Virus record (IMG/VR): IMGVR_UViG_3300033148_002045
Span: 1 to 25,792 of that record
Length of the DNA: 25,792 nucleotides
Strand: one strand, 5' to 3'
Origin: a virus
The notes beneath the pieces were generated by a model. That model did no database searches, had not been told where the DNA came from, and saw only the letters and a program-made list of their open reading frames with translations. This document shows positions 5,153 to 23,728 of this stretch, one piece after another. The position numbers and the translations under genes are program-made. The first letter of the stretch is position 1, and every line of letters begins with the position of its first letter.

Positions 5153-5788
5153 TTACATCGGCTCCACATCTTTTAAATTACTCAAGCCCTGATTGATAGC
5201 TGTACCTGTGAGGCTGTTAAGGAACTCCTCAAGCTCTACGTTTTCTGCGTTGCCCTGCTCTATCTTAGCGATTATATGCCCGCCTGAAATCATCGTGTCT
5301 TCGTCAAGTAAAGGTACATCGGTTGCGCTAGTCAACCTTGCCGGACGTTTAATGGCCTCCACATCTATCTGATACACCGCATCCGGAACCGGGTGTACTT
5401 CGATTTTAACATCGTCACCGGCTCTGCTATACATCCGATACACCAAAGGCTGTGCCTCTGTGGATCCTTGCTGTCGAACATACTCCCTGAAATCACCATC
5501 CTCAAACTTTACGAGAGGATCGGATGTGCTGATCTGTAAATTCGTTAGCGTTGAAATCTCTCCGGAAGGATCGAGAGAAACTGTGTAAATCTTTGTCGAT
5601 GCCACCGTGTCAAAGTTGCCGTATATCTTTAAGGCATCCCAAACGGTAGCGTCCTTCATTATGTCTCTCTGTACCCTGTTAAGAAAGCCCAGGATAAGGG
5701 CAGCATGAGCGTCTGTGATAGCTGGGGATTGCGGGAGTCTTAAGTTCTTCTGTATCTCGTTAATTATGTTTAAGACATTTAGAGCCAT
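5153..5788 (-). CDS. Head-tail / tail adaptor protein (tail tubular A-like)
   Basis: A 211-residue protein. An N-terminal helical segment (MALNVLNIINEIQKNLRLPQ) is followed by a helix around 'LILGFLNRVQRDIM', then a beta-rich core and a C-terminal helix with 'MISGGHIIAKIEQGNAENVELEEFLNSL'. Proteins of this shape, between about 190 and 220 residues and encoded just before the nozzle, are ring-forming tail adaptors that bind the portal exit and the nozzle. The GG-x-I-x-x-x-x-x-G segment near residue 170 is also typical of these adaptors, where the protein docks a helix to neighbours. It is ten bases from the WMG-repeat gene and one base before the nozzle gene. The family assignment is by pattern and neighbourhood. 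Confidence 0.72.
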   Translation of the reverse strand: MALNVLNIINEIQKNLRLPQSPAITDAHAALILGFLNRVQRDIMKDATVWDALKIYGNFDTVASTKIYTVSLDPSGEISTLTNLQISTSDPLVKFEDGDFREYVRQQGSTEAQPLVYRMYSRAGDDVKIEVHPVPDAVYQIDVEAIKRPARLTSATDVPLLDEDTMISGGHIIAKIEQGNAENVELEEFLNSLTGTAINQGLSNLKDVEPM

Positions 5789-5798
5789 AATTTGTCTC

Positions 5799-6002
5799 CT
5801 ATGACAATTTAATTTGATCTGTCGGCGTAAAACCTACACCATTAATCTGATCTGTCTCGAATGCGGCAACACCATCTATTACATCGGTAGGTGAATAAGG
5901 AGTGCCGACAATTATGTCAGTCAAAGCGGCGGCGCCCATCCAATCGCCCATCCACTTACCCATCCATCCGCCCATCCATCCGCTATCTGTCTCTCTTGAC
6001 AT
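5799..6002 (-). CDS. Small WMG-repeat protein, unknown function
   Basis: A 67-residue protein whose ATG overlaps the stop of the 690-residue gene in a TAATG junction, so it is likely translated by coupling. Residues 8-23 are four tandem tetrapeptides, GWMG-GWMG-KWMG-DWMG, encoded by four 12-base repeats. The C-terminal part alternates 'YSPTDVIDG', 'FETDQINGV' and 'FTPTDQIKLS', which looks like a degenerate D-x-I-x-G-V repeat. No membrane segment or catalytic motif is visible. It lies between the exported-protein block and the tail adaptor, so it may be a small virion or assembly peptide, but nothing in the sequence proves this. Confidence 0.6.
   Translation of the reverse strand: MSRETDSGWMGGWMGKWMGDWMGAAALTDIIVGTPYSPTDVIDGVAAFETDQINGVGFTPTDQIKLS
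5934..5981 (-). repeat. Four tandem 12-bp repeats encoding x-W-M-G
   Basis: On the coding (minus) strand the unit is GGATGGATGGGC with small changes (GGATGGATGGGT, AAGTGGATGGGC, GATTGGATGGGC). The period of 12 keeps the reading frame, so copy-number change would add or remove whole tetrapeptides. Confidence 0.9.
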
Positions 6003-8074
6003 TAATTACACCCTGTTAAAATTAGAGTCACGGCGTCTCTGTTAAAACTTACGTCCATCGTGGATGACACAACATTTGTATCATCGTCAATATTTCTGAA
6101 CTTAGGTGTTGTTGTACCCATACCGGTACTTATACCAAGCTGAGTAGCTGCCATTGCACATATAATTTCTCTCAGTGTCCGTGTACCGTCCACCGTTTCG
6201 TCAAGTATTGCATCAACAGCAGCAGCAGTTAAGGCCATAGAATCCCCTGCCTTTGCAGGAGCATAATTACCCTGAGTCGTTGCAAGGGTTGTTCCGTCTG
6301 CACCCGTTACTGTGTCGAGATCAGTTTGTGCGGTGTCCTGCTTCGCCTCTGTAGCTAAACCGCTTTGTACCTGAGTAACATCATATCTCGCATCATCACT
6401 AAGAGTCAGATTTGTAATCCCTGAAGTCGTGAAATTTCCCCTTATCGCTACCGTACCACCTGTGCTAGTCCCTTCAATAAACTGACCGTTACCCTCAAGG
6501 CTCATCGTGTCAGTCCCCGTATCACCCATAGCCTCTACCTGAATACCGCCTGAGTAATTCCTAAAGCTTACATTCGTATTACCCACTGCTGCGCCAAAGT
6601 CAAGAGACGGTGAACCTGTACCAGCTACTTCGGAATAACAGCCAATACAAGCGTAGTCACCTGCTGCCGACAAAGTGAGTGTTGTTGAAAGTCCACTCTC
6701 CTGAAAATGCGCCTCACCAATAGTTACCGTTCCGATATGAGCATGTTCAAACTCTACCTCACCTGTAGGAGTTGTTCCTGTGCCTGATACTGCTGGACCA
6801 TGAAAATGTGTGTTTGATATATCCTGACCACCTAAAGCAAGCGTCCAGTCATGTCCATAGAAAACCTGACTTACCTGACTTGCTGCCAAAGTAATGGTTG
6901 AATTTGGAGCGATACTGAAACGATTAAGGTTCAAAGCCGTAGCCAAAGTATTCGCTGCTGCAATCGTTGAGACAGGGTTCGTAGAAACCCCATCAATACC
7001 AACTACTGTATTCGTGTTTGAAAGATTTGTATCTATCCAGATCGAACCACCATCATAAATAGACGTTCCGAGAGAAAACGATGTAAACATCTGATCTATT
7101 GCAAGGGTTGCTGTGGTCAATCCTGAGGCAGCGTAGAATCTAATCCTCACCTTTCCAATATTACTATTAGTACCAACCATTGACGTAAATAAATCATAAC
7201 TGTTCACCTCATTTGTAGAAGCTGCCTTCCCTGATAATGTCCCGATCTGCACCCATCCAGGGGCTATCCAATCATACCCAAACACATCAAGAGAATCATT
7301 ATTACCGTTTAAATAACCTGTGACCGTAACTGAAGATGGAATCCCTGCCCCTATGGTGAACTCATAATACAGTTCCATCGCCCCTGTGTCGTCAGTATGC
7401 TCATGGTTCGTGCCGTCAAGGGCTGCTGTGCTTGCATAAGTGCCGCTTGACTGCGTGCCTGTGGTCAAGGTAACTGACGCAGGGGAGGTATTTACAGCCG
7501 AACCGACATTTGAGATATTTGAGAGTTGACTTTGTGTTGAGGGGAAGGTATCGCCTGTTAAACCGGTTGTGTCATATTGATTGACTATATTTGCATGAGC
7601 CGTAGCACCAAGATAAGAGTCGCCTGTCTGCGCTGTATGGCCTGTGAGTGTCGAAACGGTAGGTACAACTGCACTCGTATGTGTAATAGCTTCAAGTTGG
7701 GCTAATAAATCCCCTGTCCTCCAAGGGTATAGAACAAGCATGGTATCTTTTGAGTCAGTCGTTGTAGACTGCACCTTGACAGAAACAGTGTCACAGTTCA
7801 TTTCCCCGGACGTTAAGTCGAGATAGTACATACCTGAAGAAGTGGCTATCTCAGTCGCTTCATTAGTTGCGTCACCATCACCAGCAGCGTCACAACTTAT
7901 CTCAGTATCCAGCCCTGCTGCACCCGTTACAGGATCACCGTCGTTGTCTAATATCGGGAACGAAACACGAAACGCCTGATTCTTAACTGGCACAATAGTT
8001 GCATCTGTCGAAGCACCCCATACATTAGGAACGCTAAGTAGTAAGATTATGAGTATGCTAAGTAGTATCTTCAT
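6002..8074 (-). CDS. Exported 690-residue protein with phage tail-type modules
   Basis: Residues 1-20 (MKILLSILIILLLSVPNVWG) are a textbook Sec signal: Lys, a long Leu/Ile core, and a likely cut before or after Ala21. Residues 25-115 match a module common in phage tail and virion proteins, seen here as KNQAFRVSFPILDNDGDPVT, an AGLDTEIS.DA segment, and SSGMYYLDLTSGEMN. The middle (about 130-560) is Thr/Ser/Gly-rich and beta-strand-rich. Near residue 590 a short coiled or helical patch (ATEAKQDTAQTDLDTV) starts a C-terminal phage module: AAVDAILDETVDGTRTLREI, then a final beta hairpin with FRNIDDDTNVV and VSFNRDAVTLIL. Six Cys are visible. A phage structural architecture with an export signal is unusual. 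It could be placed outside the cytoplasm or be a periplasm-matured appendage. Its ATG lies one base before the stop of the preceding gene. Confidence 0.75.
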   Translation of the reverse strand: MKILLSILIILLLSVPNVWGASTDATIVPVKNQAFRVSFPILDNDGDPVTGAAGLDTEISCDAAGDGDATNEATEIATSSGMYYLDLTSGEMNCDTVSVKVQSTTTDSKDTMLVLYPWRTGDLLAQLEAITHTSAVVPTVSTLTGHTAQTGDSYLGATAHANIVNQYDTTGLTGDTFPSTQSQLSNISNVGSAVNTSPASVTLTTGTQSSGTYASTAALDGTNHEHTDDTGAMELYYEFTIGAGIPSSVTVTGYLNGNNDSLDVFGYDWIAPGWVQIGTLSGKAASTNEVNSYDLFTSMVGTNSNIGKVRIRFYAASGLTTATLAIDQMFTSFSLGTSIYDGGSIWIDTNLSNTNTVVGIDGVSTNPVSTIAAANTLATALNLNRFSIAPNSTITLAASQVSQVFYGHDWTLALGGQDISNTHFHGPAVSGTGTTPTGEVEFEHAHIGTVTIGEAHFQESGLSTTLTLSAAGDYACIGCYSEVAGTGSPSLDFGAAVGNTNVSFRNYSGGIQVEAMGDTGTDTMSLEGNGQFIEGTSTGGTVAIRGNFTTSGITNLTLSDDARYDVTQVQSGLATEAKQDTAQTDLDTVTGADGTTLATTQGNYAPAKAGDSMALTAAAVDAILDETVDGTRTLREIICAMAATQLGISTGMGTTTPKFRNIDDDTNVVSSTMDVSFNRDAVTLILTGCN

Positions 8075-11000
8075 TTAACGCCCCCAAAATGGTTGGTTGT
8101 CGAACGTAAAAGGAACATTCCTGAAACGTATCATCATTGGTTGACCTGAACTGATCGTTACAAAAGACCATCGTATTTCTGAATAGGCGGGGTTCCGCTC
8201 ATCGGTGCTACCTTTTTCCATGTAGATTAAATTCTTGCTCAAAGAATCTCTGTCAGACGTTAAGACAAACCAAGGGGTATCTGCCGTCCATGATGTACAG
8301 CTAGACCATGTAGCACCATCGTCAATCGATTGAATATTACAGTTTGACAGGATAAGAAACAAACCCTCCGACCCTACCAGTAAAGCATTTGGAGCGATAA
8401 CCGTAGAACTCACAAGGTCTTCAACCCAATTTGCGTTTGTCCCGTCACGGACAATAAAGTAAGACCCTGATCCTGACACGCCTATTGCTATTATAGGCTC
8501 AGTGTTATTCTGAACATTAATTGCGTTGTTGGCTTGCATACCTGCTTCTGAGTCACTGTGAATACCTCTTTTAGTCCACGTTATATCATTGTCAACAACT
8601 GTTCCCCATTGATTCGTAGGCCATGTCGGTTGACTTCCACTCGTTGTTCCACCACCTGAATCGGCTGTATACATAAATCCGTCATGCGGTGAAGCTAAAG
8701 CACAATCATAAGCTCCATAGGCCGTTGTAGATGTCCAGGTTGTACAAGGCCAATCCGTTCCTGAATTATCCTTCATTGAATAAACCAGATCAGCATCAGA
8801 TTCGTCTATGGGTAAGCCTCCTGCTGAATGTTCAGTCAGATCACTTCTGTAAAATTTAAACGTCCCATGAGTTACCTGCGGCATGATATTTGTATAATAT
8901 GTTTCGTGGTAGACGTTTGTGCCGGAATCATCTCTTATGCCCCATAGAAAATGTATAGACTTCTGCCCTGACACTTCATCCCCAAGGCTAATTCCCTGCA
9001 TGTAAGTCTTAGAATCTCCACTGGTATCACTCGCCATTGCAAACCTTACGGCGGTGTACCAAGTCCCGGCTGCGCTTCTTTCCATTACGAATATACCGTT
9101 ACTACCTCCATAATAACCAACCATATAGAATAAAAATAAGTCACCGTCATCATCCACCACTATCCGTTTATAACCCCTGCCCGTAATCGCTGGTGGGCTT
9201 ATATTTGTCCAGCCAATACTTAGCACATTAGAAAACGAAGCATCGTCGATTGCGTAATCAGATTTATAGATTCTAATATTTTCATCATCACCGTCACTCA
9301 TTGTCCTGCCACCCATAATCAGGTAAGCGAATCCGCTTGTGTCGAGATAGACATCCATTGAGTTGTGAAGGTCTGAGTATCTGTAAGGGCTTCCAAGCCC
9401 CCACTCGGCAAAATCCCAAGTTTCACTGCTATTATCGTACACATTCATTATTATTTCGTTACCTCTGTTAAACAAGGCAAAAAACGAATGATTGTTATAC
9501 GTCCTTACGTGAGTTGAATAGTTCTGTCCGAAGGCTTGGTTCCTGTTGCCCTCCCTACTTATAAGTATCCCCTCACTACCTAATTCTGTCGGATCGCCCA
9601 TGTCTTCAGTATGAATCATCAACTGATTGGTAGAGTCTTTATGATAAATAACAGTGAACATATCAGAATCCCATAAGGGAGATGAGAGTCTATATGTTGA
9701 CTTTGTAGCCACTGTCACGATAGAAGAAGCTGCTCCAAAACCTCCTGCCTCTGTCCAGATTATCTGCTCAATAGCTGTATTTGCATTATTAACAAAGGCT
9801 ATATAAACTTCATCGTCTTCGCCCATATTCGCCATAGACGTAAAACCACTCAAATTATTAGCCGTACCTACAAGGTCTGCATCTACTACATCAGCCGCAC
9901 CATCCCATGTTCCATCTCTGACGTTACCTCTTAATGTGTCTGAGTCTGTGGCATGATACTCACGCCATGTCGCCACAATTCTGTCATTCCTTGAAGCTAC
10001 ACATCTAAACTTTTTATAGTGCCCTAAGTCTGTCGCTATTGTCTCAGCACTACCCCACGAAGAACCACTATACTCTTTATATTTGAGTGTATAAGGCGCA
10101 CTTGACCCATAGGCATAACAAGCCCCAATCTTTCCCGTCCACTGAGCGTTGTAAGGGATTAACTGTATTGCCCCTGAGTCACCCGAGAGCGTGTGAATAG
10201 TCGTTGCTGCGCTAAACGCAACATTCCCTACAGCTTTACTCGCTACCTCAAGACCTGTCGTTCCGTTGGTCGATGACATCCAGGCAGTATCATTCCTTGC
10301 TAAGATAACGGTAGGTTCTGACGCAAAAGTGGCTGGCGGGACTTTACTGTGAGTGGCTATATTATAACTCGTTGAATCAGTGTCATTGTCTTTTGCCGTA
10401 ACTTCCATCTCTCTGTCGCCCGATTCAGCTTGACCGACCATGCTATAACCCCATGAATACTGTGCGCTTGGGTAGTACATTGACAAGCCTCTACCGCCTG
10501 TCACCGTTGTCATAGAAGGAACATTGTGGGCTGTATGAAATTGAAGGGTGTCATTCTCACCATAAATAATCTGAGGTTGTGTTGCTGAAGTTCCGTCTTC
10601 ATCCCAAATAGCAGTTATATATCTTCCATCATTCCAGACGTGGTTTTGAAATGGCTGACCTAAAGCACCCTCGTCTGAAGGACGGGAGATAAGACCCGGG
10701 GAATATAAAGTAGTTGCCGTCAATGACACGGCAAAAGATATCGAACTGGACATATAAAGCGGATTAGCCTGTGTCGCACCAACTGTCAACCATCCAACAT
10801 CAGGAGTCGCCCCTAGACCACTCCTGTAACGTGCTATTACCCAATCAGCCGATCTTGCATTGTCTGAGATAGTCAAGTCATCAAGATCGCCTATAAATTC
10901 ATGGTCTGGTGTAGTCGTATCTGAGTCTGCGCCAATCACTAAAATCTCATTGTCACCGTCACTTAAATTAGCATCTGTAAAGGCCGCTGTTGCCTTTTGA

Positions 11001-11884
11001 ACACCATCCATATAAAGTCTTACAAGATCGTTTGTATTATCAACAACACCAGCGATATGATGCCATGCACCATCGTTTTCAGCAGTTGAGGCATAAGTCG
11101 CTACCGCAAAACCTGCTGCCCCATCATCATAAGCCTGAAATTTCCACGAATTCACAGGCTGGTCAAACCACAATAAAAAGTTACCTGCTGCACCTATTTG
11201 ATCCTTAGACCACACCCTTTGACTGTTAGCACTGTCGCTGGTCTTAAACCAACCGTCTACTGTAAGGTCAGTATATGCACTCATTTCAATATCTGATATC
11301 TCGAACTGATCCCCTGTTCCGTCAAAAGTCTGACCCCTGTCAACCTGCCCTGCTACGTCTGTCGGCAGGCTTCCATTCTCAGTCCCATTATTGCTATTAG
11401 ATGTCTGGTCTTCTCTTGAACCTGTGGCGTTAGGGTTGTCGGTGTTTTGATAATAAGCTCCAATATAATTAGCATCCCAAGTGTTTGTTGTGCAACCATC
11501 TGTAGGCGTTACCGCATCCCAATTGATATAAGCAAACGTATCTCCTGTCGTTCCTTCATAGTCAATCTCAAAACTCCAGTGAGCATCATCCTCTGTGGCA
11601 TTGTAAGATTCATTGTCAAAAGGGATCAGGGTAGTACCATCAACCGTGGTAAATCTAACCTCACAACCATCCGTAACTGGAGGGCTACTGTCCCAAAAGT
11701 CTGCCTCTCCCGAGTCACTGTTATACTTCCCGGGACCAGTAAGATCAGAGGTCAAATGAGTGTCCGCATCAATAGTGATAAGTTTCCTCTGCTTATATCC
11801 AAACAGCCATGCCGTGCTACTGTGAGCCACAGACACAAAGGCAAATAAGAATATAAGAGAGAATATGTAAGTTTTAGTTTTCAT
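8075..11884 (-). CDS. Exported giant protein: DUF2341-like + LamG lectin fold + propeller-like repeats
   Basis: At 1269 residues this is the largest gene here. Residues 1-22 (MKTKTYIFSLIFLFAFVSVA then HS) are a Sec signal. Residues about 25-125 resemble a DUF2341-type module (GYKQRKLITID..., CEVRFTTVDGTTLIPFDNES). Residues about 145-365 are a concanavalin-like LamG domain, with strands FDGTGDQFEISD, DLTVDGWFKTSD, GAWHHIAGVVDNTNDLVRLY and EFIGDLDDLTISDNARSADW. Residues about 380-1000 carry repeated beta motifs such as IVATWREYHATDSD, EDDEVYIAFVNN and DMFTVIYHKDSTN, reading as a sialidase/BNR-like propeller. Near residue 1090, SGSQPTWPTNQWGTVVDNDI resembles a phage carbohydrate-binding or linker repeat. 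Eight Cys are visible. The likely role is glycan or surface binding outside the cytoplasm. No catalytic sialidase residues were confirmed, so enzymatic activity is not claimed. Confidence 0.78.
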   Translation of the reverse strand: MKTKTYIFSLIFLFAFVSVAHSSTAWLFGYKQRKLITIDADTHLTSDLTGPGKYNSDSGEADFWDSSPPVTDGCEVRFTTVDGTTLIPFDNESYNATEDDAHWSFEIDYEGTTGDTFAYINWDAVTPTDGCTTNTWDANYIGAYYQNTDNPNATGSREDQTSNSNNGTENGSLPTDVAGQVDRGQTFDGTGDQFEISDIEMSAYTDLTVDGWFKTSDSANSQRVWSKDQIGAAGNFLLWFDQPVNSWKFQAYDDGAAGFAVATYASTAENDGAWHHIAGVVDNTNDLVRLYMDGVQKATAAFTDANLSDGDNEILVIGADSDTTTPDHEFIGDLDDLTISDNARSADWVIARYRSGLGATPDVGWLTVGATQANPLYMSSSISFAVSLTATTLYSPGLISRPSDEGALGQPFQNHVWNDGRYITAIWDEDGTSATQPQIIYGENDTLQFHTAHNVPSMTTVTGGRGLSMYYPSAQYSWGYSMVGQAESGDREMEVTAKDNDTDSTSYNIATHSKVPPATFASEPTVILARNDTAWMSSTNGTTGLEVASKAVGNVAFSAATTIHTLSGDSGAIQLIPYNAQWTGKIGACYAYGSSAPYTLKYKEYSGSSWGSAETIATDLGHYKKFRCVASRNDRIVATWREYHATDSDTLRGNVRDGTWDGAADVVDADLVGTANNLSGFTSMANMGEDDEVYIAFVNNANTAIEQIIWTEAGGFGAASSIVTVATKSTYRLSSPLWDSDMFTVIYHKDSTNQLMIHTEDMGDPTELGSEGILISREGNRNQAFGQNYSTHVRTYNNHSFFALFNRGNEIIMNVYDNSSETWDFAEWGLGSPYRYSDLHNSMDVYLDTSGFAYLIMGGRTMSDGDDENIRIYKSDYAIDDASFSNVLSIGWTNISPPAITGRGYKRIVVDDDGDLFLFYMVGYYGGSNGIFVMERSAAGTWYTAVRFAMASDTSGDSKTYMQGISLGDEVSGQKSIHFLWGIRDDSGTNVYHETYYTNIMPQVTHGTFKFYRSDLTEHSAGGLPIDESDADLVYSMKDNSGTDWPCTTWTSTTAYGAYDCALASPHDGFMYTADSGGGTTSGSQPTWPTNQWGTVVDNDITWTKRGIHSDSEAGMQANNAINVQNNTEPIIAIGVSGSGSYFIVRDGTNANWVEDLVSSTVIAPNALLVGSEGLFLILSNCNIQSIDDGATWSSCTSWTADTPWFVLTSDRDSLSKNLIYMEKGSTDERNPAYSEIRWSFVTISSGQPMMIRFRNVPFTFDNQPFWGR

Positions 11885-12354
11885 TAGCTAGCCGTTACAT
11901 CCACCGTCACACTGCCAATTGGGATAACATGACCAGTGTCACCATTTTCTATTGTTATCGTACCTGAAGCACTAAGAACCCCAAAAGCAAGCCTGTTCGC
12001 TTCAGTCGTACAAGACAAGCAATCCCATATCTCAACGTAAGTACAATCAGTTGCACACCAGTCAGCACTTGGAGCATTCATTGTAACCGCCACAGTGTTA
12101 GAAATTGACCTACTCGCTGCCGCTGTCCCAAAAGTTATGATCTCTCTTGCATAATTACCCCCTGTCACTTCAGTGCATTTAGTCGAGTCAGTAGGTGTAG
12201 AGTTATTGCAAAGCCCGACATACACTGTTTGGTCTTTAAACAGAGTGTCTAATGTCGGGTTTGAACCGCCAGTGGTGGTAAGACCTGCCTGAACTGGCAA
12301 GGCAAGGAAGAGCGTTAACAGCAATACAGATATGAACGTAAATAAATTCTTCAT
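11884..12354 (-). CDS. Exported Gp80-like tail-fibre-type protein, Cys-rich
   Basis: A 156-residue protein. Residues 1-23 (MKNLFTFISVLLLTLFLALP, then VQA) form a Sec signal with V-Q-A before the likely cut. The mature part follows a phage domain often annotated as tail fibre/Gp80-like: VYVGLC, a TEVTGGNYAREIITFG strand pair, an NAPSADW turn, a TYVEIWD strand, and a final GTITIENGDTGHVIPIGSVT hairpin. Unlike the usual cytosolic relatives it has six Cys (49, 60, 100, 104, 112, 115), four of them clustered, which would suit disulphides in an oxidising compartment. Its stop overlaps the start of the 1269-residue gene, so the two are likely co-translated. The fold assignment is by eye. Confidence 0.75.
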   Translation of the reverse strand: MKNLFTFISVLLLTLFLALPVQAGLTTTGGSNPTLDTLFKDQTVYVGLCNNSTPTDSTKCTEVTGGNYAREIITFGTAAASRSISNTVAVTMNAPSADWCATDCTYVEIWDCLSCTTEANRLAFGVLSASGTITIENGDTGHVIPIGSVTVDVTAS

Positions 12355-12361
12355 TGTCCTC

Positions 12362-12820
12362 TTACCCCCTTAATTCTACATCAGGTTCCGTGCCATCATC
12401 ATACATCTGAAATGGGTAACGCATGGCGGTACTTTTAACCATTTCCATACCTTCGCTACCGTCCTCACGATCTCTCTGTGTGTAAACGTCTGCTACAGCG
12501 TGTTCAAGGACTTCTACAACCTGAACCGGCACCCTGACCTTATACCCACGTTTAATCTTATAAACAACCCCTGCAACTGCAACCGTCACATCGTCCTTGC
12601 CGCCTGGCGCTTCCGTTGCGGGGATCATAATCACCTTCTTCTTAGATCCCTTGAGGATCTTCCACGCATCGTTAGCGTTAGGCTCCCTACCGGACTCCTT
12701 AGCCTTCTTCTCTATGCCCTTCGCTATATCCTTCGATGTGTCCTTGTTAAGCGCCTCGTTAGCAAGTATCCCTTCTTTCTCTTTTCTCTTCCTCTCATTT
12801 TTTGCTGCTGTTGTTTCCAT
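12362..12820 (-). CDS. Small structural-module protein, possible paralogue of next upstream gene
   Basis: A 152-residue protein with a highly charged N-terminal third (Lys/Glu/Asp, residues 1-65) and a compact domain at about 68-118: 'VTVAVAGVVYKIKRGYKVRV' then 'PVQVVEVLEHAVADVY'. A similar beta-beta-'VP..V...L' unit occurs in the neighbouring 142-codon region gene. Similar short proteins accompany N4gp56-type capsid genes in phages I know, but I cannot assign a precise function. AAGGAGG lies eight bases before the ATG. A C-terminal 'AMRYPFQMYDDGTEPDVEL' tail follows the domain. It sits 7 bases before the first of the exported genes. Confidence 0.65.
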   Translation of the reverse strand: METTAAKNERKRKEKEGILANEALNKDTSKDIAKGIEKKAKESGREPNANDAWKILKGSKKKVIMIPATEAPGGKDDVTVAVAGVVYKIKRGYKVRVPVQVVEVLEHAVADVYTQRDREDGSEGMEMVKSTAMRYPFQMYDDGTEPDVELRG

Positions 12821-22644: not shown

Positions 22645-22645
22645 A

Positions 22646-22783
22646 TCAATTCACCAAAGTATAAACTGGCTCCGGCTCACAGCTAAACAGAACCAACGTG
22701 AGAATTATCAGAATTAAAAAAGGGAACCCAACCATCCACGATAGCAAGATCCCCTTTTCTACGGTTGAGAGAAAACACTTCAA
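22646..22783 (-). CDS. 45-residue peptide with membrane helix or lipobox
   Basis: A TTG at 22783 with GGAGAG seven bases upstream opens a 45-residue frame, ending in a TGA two bases before the next ATG. An internal ATG would give 29 residues. The helix at about 15-33 (WMVGFPFLILIILTLVLFS) ends in V-L-F-S-C, a possible lipobox, then EPEPVYTLVN. It is either a small lipoprotein or a single-pass membrane peptide. The start choice is uncertain. Confidence 0.45.
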   Translation of the reverse strand: MKCFLSTVEKGILLSWMVGFPFLILIILTLVLFSCEPEPVYTLVN

Positions 22784-22830
22784 GGCATACTCTCCAAAAA
22801 ATATATTAATTTAGGGACTTCATACGCATA

Positions 22831-22859
22831 CAGTTAAAGGAAAAAAAATACATTGTCAA
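22831..22859 (-). promoter_or_regulatory. Possible sigma70 promoter for the leftward operon
   Basis: On the minus strand, TTGACA at 22859-22854, a 17-base spacer and TAACTG form a consensus -35 with a weak -10 (TTAACT at 16 bases is another reading). It would start transcription about 40 to 50 bases before the 45-residue gene. Confidence 0.35.
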
Positions 22860-22981
22860 GAAAATAATCAGTTATTAGATATTATCGAACAACTGAAGTT
22901 TTTATTATTTTTTTTATTCTCAGAGAATATAGAAGAACAGGAAAGACAGTTTCATGGAGAGTAAAAAGATTATCGAGCGCA

Positions 22982-23022
22982 GGGGGGACTCCTGTATCGT
23001 GATGGGGCGAGGGGGGTGGGGG
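22982..23022 (+). repeat. G-tract cluster, G-quadruplex candidate
   Basis: The plus strand has runs of six, four, six and five G within 41 bases; the last three runs are separated by only three and one bases. One loop would be long (16 bases), so the most compact quadruplex is uncertain. Confidence 0.5.
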
Positions 23023-23026
23023 TCGT

Positions 23027-23164
23027 GTGAGGTCGAAAGATATAGAGCATAATGTGACTATTGATGAAAGAGTGTCCTATCCCACCAGGCAGCGTGTCGG
23101 TGCTGTTCTGGTTGCATATAACCGTCAAATAGCAGTGGATGATCCCTTAAAAGTAGTGGTATGA
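23027..23164 (+). CDS. Possible 45-residue protein, GTG start
   Basis: A GTG after GAGGGGGGTGGGGGTC opens a frame whose product starts MRSKDIEHNVTIDERVSYPT and continues RQRVGAVLVAYNRQIAVDDP to a TGA at 23162-23164. The amino acid mix looks protein-like, but the ribosome site is only a G-tract, and a competing frame exists on the other strand. It may be a remnant or a chance frame. Confidence 0.25.
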   Translation: MRSKDIEHNVTIDERVSYPTRQRVGAVLVAYNRQIAVDDPLKVVV

Positions 23165-23485
23165 ACGTAAACACCTATTATCATTGAGAGTGTAAAAATG
23201 CACCTACGTCGCATAAGTATTAAAATGTAAACCACTTCCACAGCCTCTTTGATCTTATCCCACTTCAGGGCGCTATACTGCCTTTATTTGGGTATCTCAT
23301 TTATTCCGGCTTATTCCTGTTTATTGTCATGGTCAACCACATATGCACGATAGGTTGACAATAGAAGTTTTACCTTAGCCCTCCTGCCCTTTTACCTCTT
23401 TACCTGCTTAACTACACAAACACAGTACCAGCACCATTCAGCAGCTACAGCACCGCCACAGACCATCAAACCTCTTAATCATACC

Positions 23486-23518
23486 AAGACAAGGACAGTG
23501 ACTTTAAAGACAAGTACA
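23486..23518 (+). repeat. Near-identical 12-bp direct repeat, 21-bp period
   Basis: AAGACAAGGACA and AAGACAAGTACA differ in one base and start 21 bases apart, about two helical turns, so a protein could bind both on one face. Confidence 0.5.
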
Positions 23519-23656
23519 AAGGCCAGGTGAGCTGCGCTTATTTAAACTGCATTGATATAGAGACTAGAGACAGAGAAAATACAATCCCCCCTATTATCCC
23601 CCCACGCCAAACTCTTCTAAAGTTCTATTCCTTTACCTCGATAGTAATAATAAAGC

Positions 23657-23684
23657 TTGACAAGGTTGTTAGGTATGCTACACT
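23657..23684 (+). promoter_or_regulatory. Sigma70-like promoter for the rightward operon
   Basis: TTGACA at 23657-23662, a 16-base spacer and TACACT at 23679-23684 make a good match to the consensus. The predicted start lies about 35 to 40 bases before the MGLDMYL gene, whose AGGAGGG site follows. Confidence 0.65.
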
Positions 23685-23728
23685 TTACCTAGATGGTAAC
23701 TATAACCAATTAACAGGAGGGTAAGACA

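Follow-up and report, generated by a model that had tools for sequence, protein, structure and literature searches.

Tailed phages normally assemble their particles in the cytoplasm, and for this reason a set of tail-fiber-like proteins that appear to be exported is unexpected. Such a set is encoded in the window, by which we mean the whole stretch of DNA analyzed here (25,792 nt, or 25.8 kb, of an IMG/VR virus record). The locus thus raises the question of whether these proteins leave the cytoplasm and, if they do, whether they still become parts of virions. The first-pass annotation had placed three genes, encoding proteins of 156, 1269, and 690 aa, end to end between head and tail genes, and this arrangement was confirmed by the open reading frames (ORFs) and by matches of the flanking genes.

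Genomic setting of the cassette

The window phage is podovirus-like. Its late genes lie on the minus strand in the order terminase, portal, a 118-aa gene in the scaffold position, capsid protein, and an HNH endonuclease plus small head genes, followed by the genes for Gp80 and the 1269-aa, 690-aa, and 67-aa proteins and then by those for an SU10-type adaptor, a nozzle/stabilization-like protein, a fiber-like protein, and others. The terminase, portal, and capsid genes therefore precede the three-gene set, and the adaptor and nozzle-like genes come after it. The best match of the capsid protein was Pseudoalteromonas phage vB_Pun_Y3 (38%), and that of the terminase was phage C72C1 (42%); no close homolog of the capsid protein was retrieved from phage and IMG/VR searches.

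The three ORFs are contiguous, with junctions of 1 base or 0 bases. The ATGs of the 1269-aa and 690-aa genes directly abut the preceding stop codon, and purine-rich leaders stand ahead of the Gp80 and 690-aa starts. At the junction of signal and mature part there is no ATG, GTG, or TTG and hence no alternative start, which, together with the stop-start coupling, fixes the start sites of the 1269-aa and 690-aa genes.

Of the relatives that we found, L128 is the closest (terminase, 63%; portal, 53%; capsid, 62%; nozzle, 57%), and it shares both borders of this region. The upstream boundary is a 152-aa gene (positions 12362 to 12820, minus strand; 46% to L128 positions 6858 to 7145), and the downstream boundary is the SU10-type tail adaptor gene (5153 to 5788, minus strand; PF24175, 1.3e-9; 40% to L128). 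In L128, the adaptor gene comes immediately after the homolog of the 152-aa gene, and the entire block from Gp80 to the 67-aa gene is missing. The last gene of this block (5799 to 6002, minus strand) encodes a 67-aa protein with WMG repeats (GWMGGWMGKWMGDWMG) and no signal. The best explanation of this comparison is that a fiber cassette (positions 5799 to 12354) has been inserted, with head genes on one side of it and the adaptor gene on the other; it is accessory because L128 lacks it, although two genomes do not settle gain in the window versus loss in L128. The GC3 of the three genes is 0.36 to 0.39, versus 0.42 to 0.51 in most core genes. The adaptor gene of L128 (positions 7171 to 8193) encodes an extra N-terminal stretch of ∼130 aa, for which there was no Pfam match.

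Signals, domains, and cysteines of the three proteins

A clean Sec signal on each protein had also been proposed from the sequence. Our own heuristic rule, which recognized all of its controls (OmpA, PhoA, MalE, and Lpp), and inspection agree with this assignment: each protein is predicted to start with a positive n-region, an uncharged hydrophobic core (at least 9 residues), and an AXA-type site. All three signals are encoded on the minus strand. That of the Gp80 protein (12286 to 12354; MKNLFTFISVLLLTLFLALPVQA, predicted cleavage VQA-G) stands where the family N-terminal helix would be. The signal of the 1269-aa protein (11819 to 11884) would be cleaved after residue 20 or 22, i.e., (V)A-H or AHS-S, and that of the 690-aa protein (8015 to 8074; MKILLSILIILLLSVPNVWG, VWG-A) ends exactly before the native N terminus, ASTDA, as aligned to relatives. 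Whole-protein shuffles passed the same rule in 2.0%, 0.4%, and 0.7% of cases for the 156-, 1269-, and 690-aa proteins, respectively. The background in related loci was 19 of 2230 ORFs of at least 100 aa; at 300 aa or more it was 2 of 722, both doubtful. Three chance signals side by side would thus be unlikely. No lipobox was found by the heuristic in the three cassette proteins; only a separate 116-aa gene has one. We regarded the following as doubtful and excluded them: an internal-Met match (L012), a readthrough frame (L216), and matches to the rule in L097 and L100.

The predicted modules were borne out in part. Profile or homology support was obtained for a Gp80 domain, a LamG domain (PF13385), and a tail-type N-terminal module, while no profile was found for the proposed DUF2341, propeller, and tail-type C-terminal modules. 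The Cys counts of 6, 8, and 6 were correct.

The 156-aa protein (11884 to 12354, minus strand) consists of the signal and a 133-aa mature domain with 6 Cys. It matches PF23140 at 3.7e-15 (56.8 bits, against a cutoff of 27) and PHROG 240, "head protein," at 5e-7, and it thereby belongs to the same domain family as fiber I of Ralstonia podophage GP4 (PDB entry 8JOU); a Gp80 relative in L003 matches 8JOU chain a at 6.4e-13. The GP4 chain starts with MAAASTYTENN and is signal-less, whereas the window Gp80 bears a signal. Likewise, 80 related Gp80s carry 0 to 2 Cys, as opposed to 6 in the mature window protein. The family N-terminal helix (LSxYLEN) is not recognizable in the window copy, which has the signal and GLTTTGGSNPTLDTLF instead; its mode of attachment may differ for this reason. 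No close homolog of the whole 156-aa protein was found in phage and IMG/VR searches. An AF2 model of the mature protein (24 sequences) was poor (pLDDT 57, no PDB match) and was not used.

The 1269-aa protein (8075 to 11884, minus strand) contains a LamG domain at approximately residues 190 to 350 (PF13385, 1.3e-22) and 8 Cys, which by position form four local pairs (74/131, 589/628, 1047/1061, and 1182/1196). Its N terminus gave no DUF2341 profile match up to an E value of 5. Apart from the LamG domain, a whole-protein query of phages and IMG/VR retrieved no relatives, full-length or otherwise, and mature residues 1 to 149 had zero matches in IMG/VR.

The 690-aa protein (6002 to 8074, minus strand) is of the tail fiber type by homology and predicted fold, with a signal, a virion-type N-module, and a CBM-like and beta-helix region. 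In the AF2 model of the mature protein, the N-module and beta-helix were confident and the CBM-like part was of low confidence. The N-module occurs in 26 phage contigs (L098 to L123), with 41 to 67% identity to the window across all 26 and 57 to 67% in the closest relatives; the L098 copy (67%) aligns from mature residue 1. None of the 26 relatives has a signal, and the module had no match in 398 Pseudomonadota genomes. The relatives begin M-ASTDAxPxPxKNxAYRVTFPILDADGD, and the window protein reads MKILLSILIILLLSVPNVWG followed by ASTDATIVPVKNQAFRVSFPILDNDGD. The signal substitutes for the initiator methionine alone, and predicted cleavage would restore the native N terminus. The middle region shares 47 to 54% identity with tail proteins from five contigs (L005 to L009), which are also signal-less. 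One of these phages (L008) encodes, between lysis-type and tail genes, a predicted exported 126-aa protein with 4 Cys (positions 7562 to 7942).

Relatives of the 690-aa protein carry conserved unpaired Cys, in whose stead the window protein has new, locally paired ones. The Cys of the N-module motif ADCTNE (mature position 49) is present in 19/19 aligned relatives and is Ala in the window; mature position 440 is Cys in 5/5 relatives and Ser in the window, and position 425 is Cys in 4/5 and Ala in the window. New Cys occur at mature positions 41, 74, 456, 619, and 669. The sole family Cys retained, Cys 459, has gained a CxxC partner at 456. Such loss of lone Cys together with acquisition of pairs would fit folding in an oxidizing compartment. 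The alignments indicate that the signals were added secondarily to virion modules; the protein families of the cassette are known ones, and their exported form is new. The first-pass annotation had regarded absence of the signals from close relatives as evidence against export. Nearly all family members indeed lack them, but an artifact is not thereby shown; this near-absence instead indicates a derived trait.

Signal-bearing Gp80 proteins in prophages

A search of Pseudomonadota prophages retrieved seven more signal-bearing Gp80s (L209, L220 to L224, and L242; the heuristic labeled those of L222 and L223 lipoproteins, and on inspection we reassigned them to signal peptidase I). In each, the signal lies right ahead of an intact family N terminus, with the LSxYLEN helix kept, and the mature protein has exactly two Cys. 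The positions of these Cys differ: before GTEV and in E[FY]CVFD in L209 and L242, in xCSD-like and N..[VI]C motifs in L220 and L222 to L224, and in VCPTD and VVCWG in L221. At 69% identity to the Gp80 of L209, the signal-less copies of L243 and L244 contain no Cys and a single Cys, respectively. No signals were found among eleven Bacillota copies. Since seven of the eight signal-bearing proteins come from bacterial prophages, the variant is recurrent.

Among 120 distinct sequences, an even Cys count of at least 2 was found in 8/8 signal-bearing Gp80s (2 each, and 6 in the window) but in only 1/112 signal-less ones, a simple contingency count that ignores relatedness. Four changes of signal state were seen in a tree built with IQ-TREE, and three or more of these fall on well-supported branches. 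The Cys pair accompanies the signal in 3/3 independent phylogenetic pairs (sign test, p = 0.25; three pairs cannot reach significance). The window Gp80 lies apart from the prophage clade, on a long branch; thus, its signal was probably gained separately.

Each signal-bearing genome gave one Gp80 match in our searches. In L233 (positions 667 to 1808) and L235 (11032 to 12218), the signal-bearing Gp80 genes overlap the stop codon of a spanin-like membrane gene and lie within or beside lysis cassettes of Mu-like prophages. L235 also encodes a LamG protein a few genes after its Gp80. Two large Cys-rich, predicted exported proteins were noted as well, one of 1206 aa in L218 (12223 to 15843), with HZS_alpha and PKD matches, and one of 1819 aa (G110:C1:3703951-3709410); they have similar N termini and flank structural genes of the G110 prophage.

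Probable export and possible fates of the proteins

Export of the neighboring set, as first proposed, is well supported because the signals stand exactly before native N termini, the Cys complement has been rewired, and the combination of signal and Cys pair recurs in prophage Gp80s. We therefore consider it very probable from these sequence features that all three proteins undergo Sec export, cleavage, and disulfide formation in an oxidizing compartment. A contrary view is that the signals are inconsequential, or a sequence or start-site artifact, and that the proteins act in the cytoplasm as their relatives do. The scarcity of signals among family members speaks for it. However, stop-start coupling and the lack of an alternative start fix the gene starts, three successive signals are unlikely to arise by chance, and Cys changes accompany the signal in separate lineages, so that this view has a very small probability. 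Hardly more probable is that the signals are uncleaved N-terminal anchors that keep virion components attached to the inner membrane while assembly proceeds, an alternative offered in the first-pass annotation. The length of the hydrophobic cores is compatible with anchoring, but canonical cleavage sites in 3/3 proteins, one of them at a native N terminus, and the gain of paired Cys, which implies a folded part in an oxidizing compartment, disfavor it.

Given export, we propose that Sec would export the three large cassette products, whose signal peptides would be removed and whose disulfide-bonded folding would take place outside the cytoplasm. The mature fibers would be retained in the envelope up to lysis, at which point virions freed from the cytoplasm would acquire them as disulfide-stabilized adhesins on the tail or neck. 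We assign this joining at lysis a little less than an even chance. In its favor we counted the late structural position of the genes, the full family N terminus retained by prophage Gp80s, the spanin-like overlap in L233 and L235, and the single Gp80 per genome. In addition, the mature 690-aa protein keeps a complete attachment-type N-module with its native N terminus, as would be expected of components that continue to be attached to virions. The main competing possibility, which is somewhat less probable, is that the proteins are exported and are not virion components, with virion modules co-opted to serve as adhesins (periplasmic, surface, or released) that may block receptors, exclude phages, or bind a matrix; the free adhesive complex, trap, or superinfection block first suggested for this locus would be of this kind. 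The evidence for export fits such adhesins equally well, the cassette is accessory, and glycan binding is suggested by the LamG domain and by the predicted CBM-like and beta-helix regions. Phage-exported receptor blockers are also known: T5 Llp is a phage-encoded, periplasmic, disulfide-containing protein that abolishes receptor binding (PMC9586334). Yet a free adhesin would not need a complete virion-type N-module, kept at ∼57 to 67% identity, and the genes lie in the late structural cluster rather than in an early or lysogenic position. Exclusion lipoproteins of the Llp type are small and made early, whereas the cassette proteins have no lipobox, most of them are far larger, and their genes lie among the late structural ones.

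Virion proteins with Sec signals do exist in filamentous phages, whose coat proteins are embedded in the membrane before assembly. Those are ssDNA phages with membrane-embedded coats, in contrast to the soluble fibers of a tailed dsDNA phage considered here. We found no description of Sec-exported tailed-phage fiber proteins in the literature searched, a scope outside of which most subscription journals fall, and no precedent there for periplasmic fibers meeting virions at lysis. More generally, and still more tentatively than for this cassette, some tailed phages may mature virion parts (disulfide-stabilized fibers and neck/fiber proteins) via host Sec and disulfide machinery outside the cytoplasm, with attachment of these parts to heads delayed until lysis or later. 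If so, tailed-phage assembly would extend beyond the cytoplasm, envelope folding and disulfides would be open to receptor-binding proteins, and joining at lysis would count as a genuine step of assembly. Should the proteins instead be free adhesins, phages would have turned virion fibers into secreted weapons or shields. Related genes labeled plain "head" or "fiber" proteins may be misread, and the signal-bearing prophage Gp80s make the question directly testable in isolates.

Elsewhere in the window, positions 2272 to 2622 encode a 116-aa putative lipoprotein (MKTIIIIASCFLITSC) with a lipobox and further hydrophobic stretches, which adjoins a GNAT acetyltransferase and is a candidate exclusion or envelope protein. 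A stretch of ∼1 kb (22645 to 23728) is nearly devoid of ORFs of at least 60 aa. With minus-strand late genes on one side and a plus-strand small-gene cluster on the other, it is likely a divergent control region.
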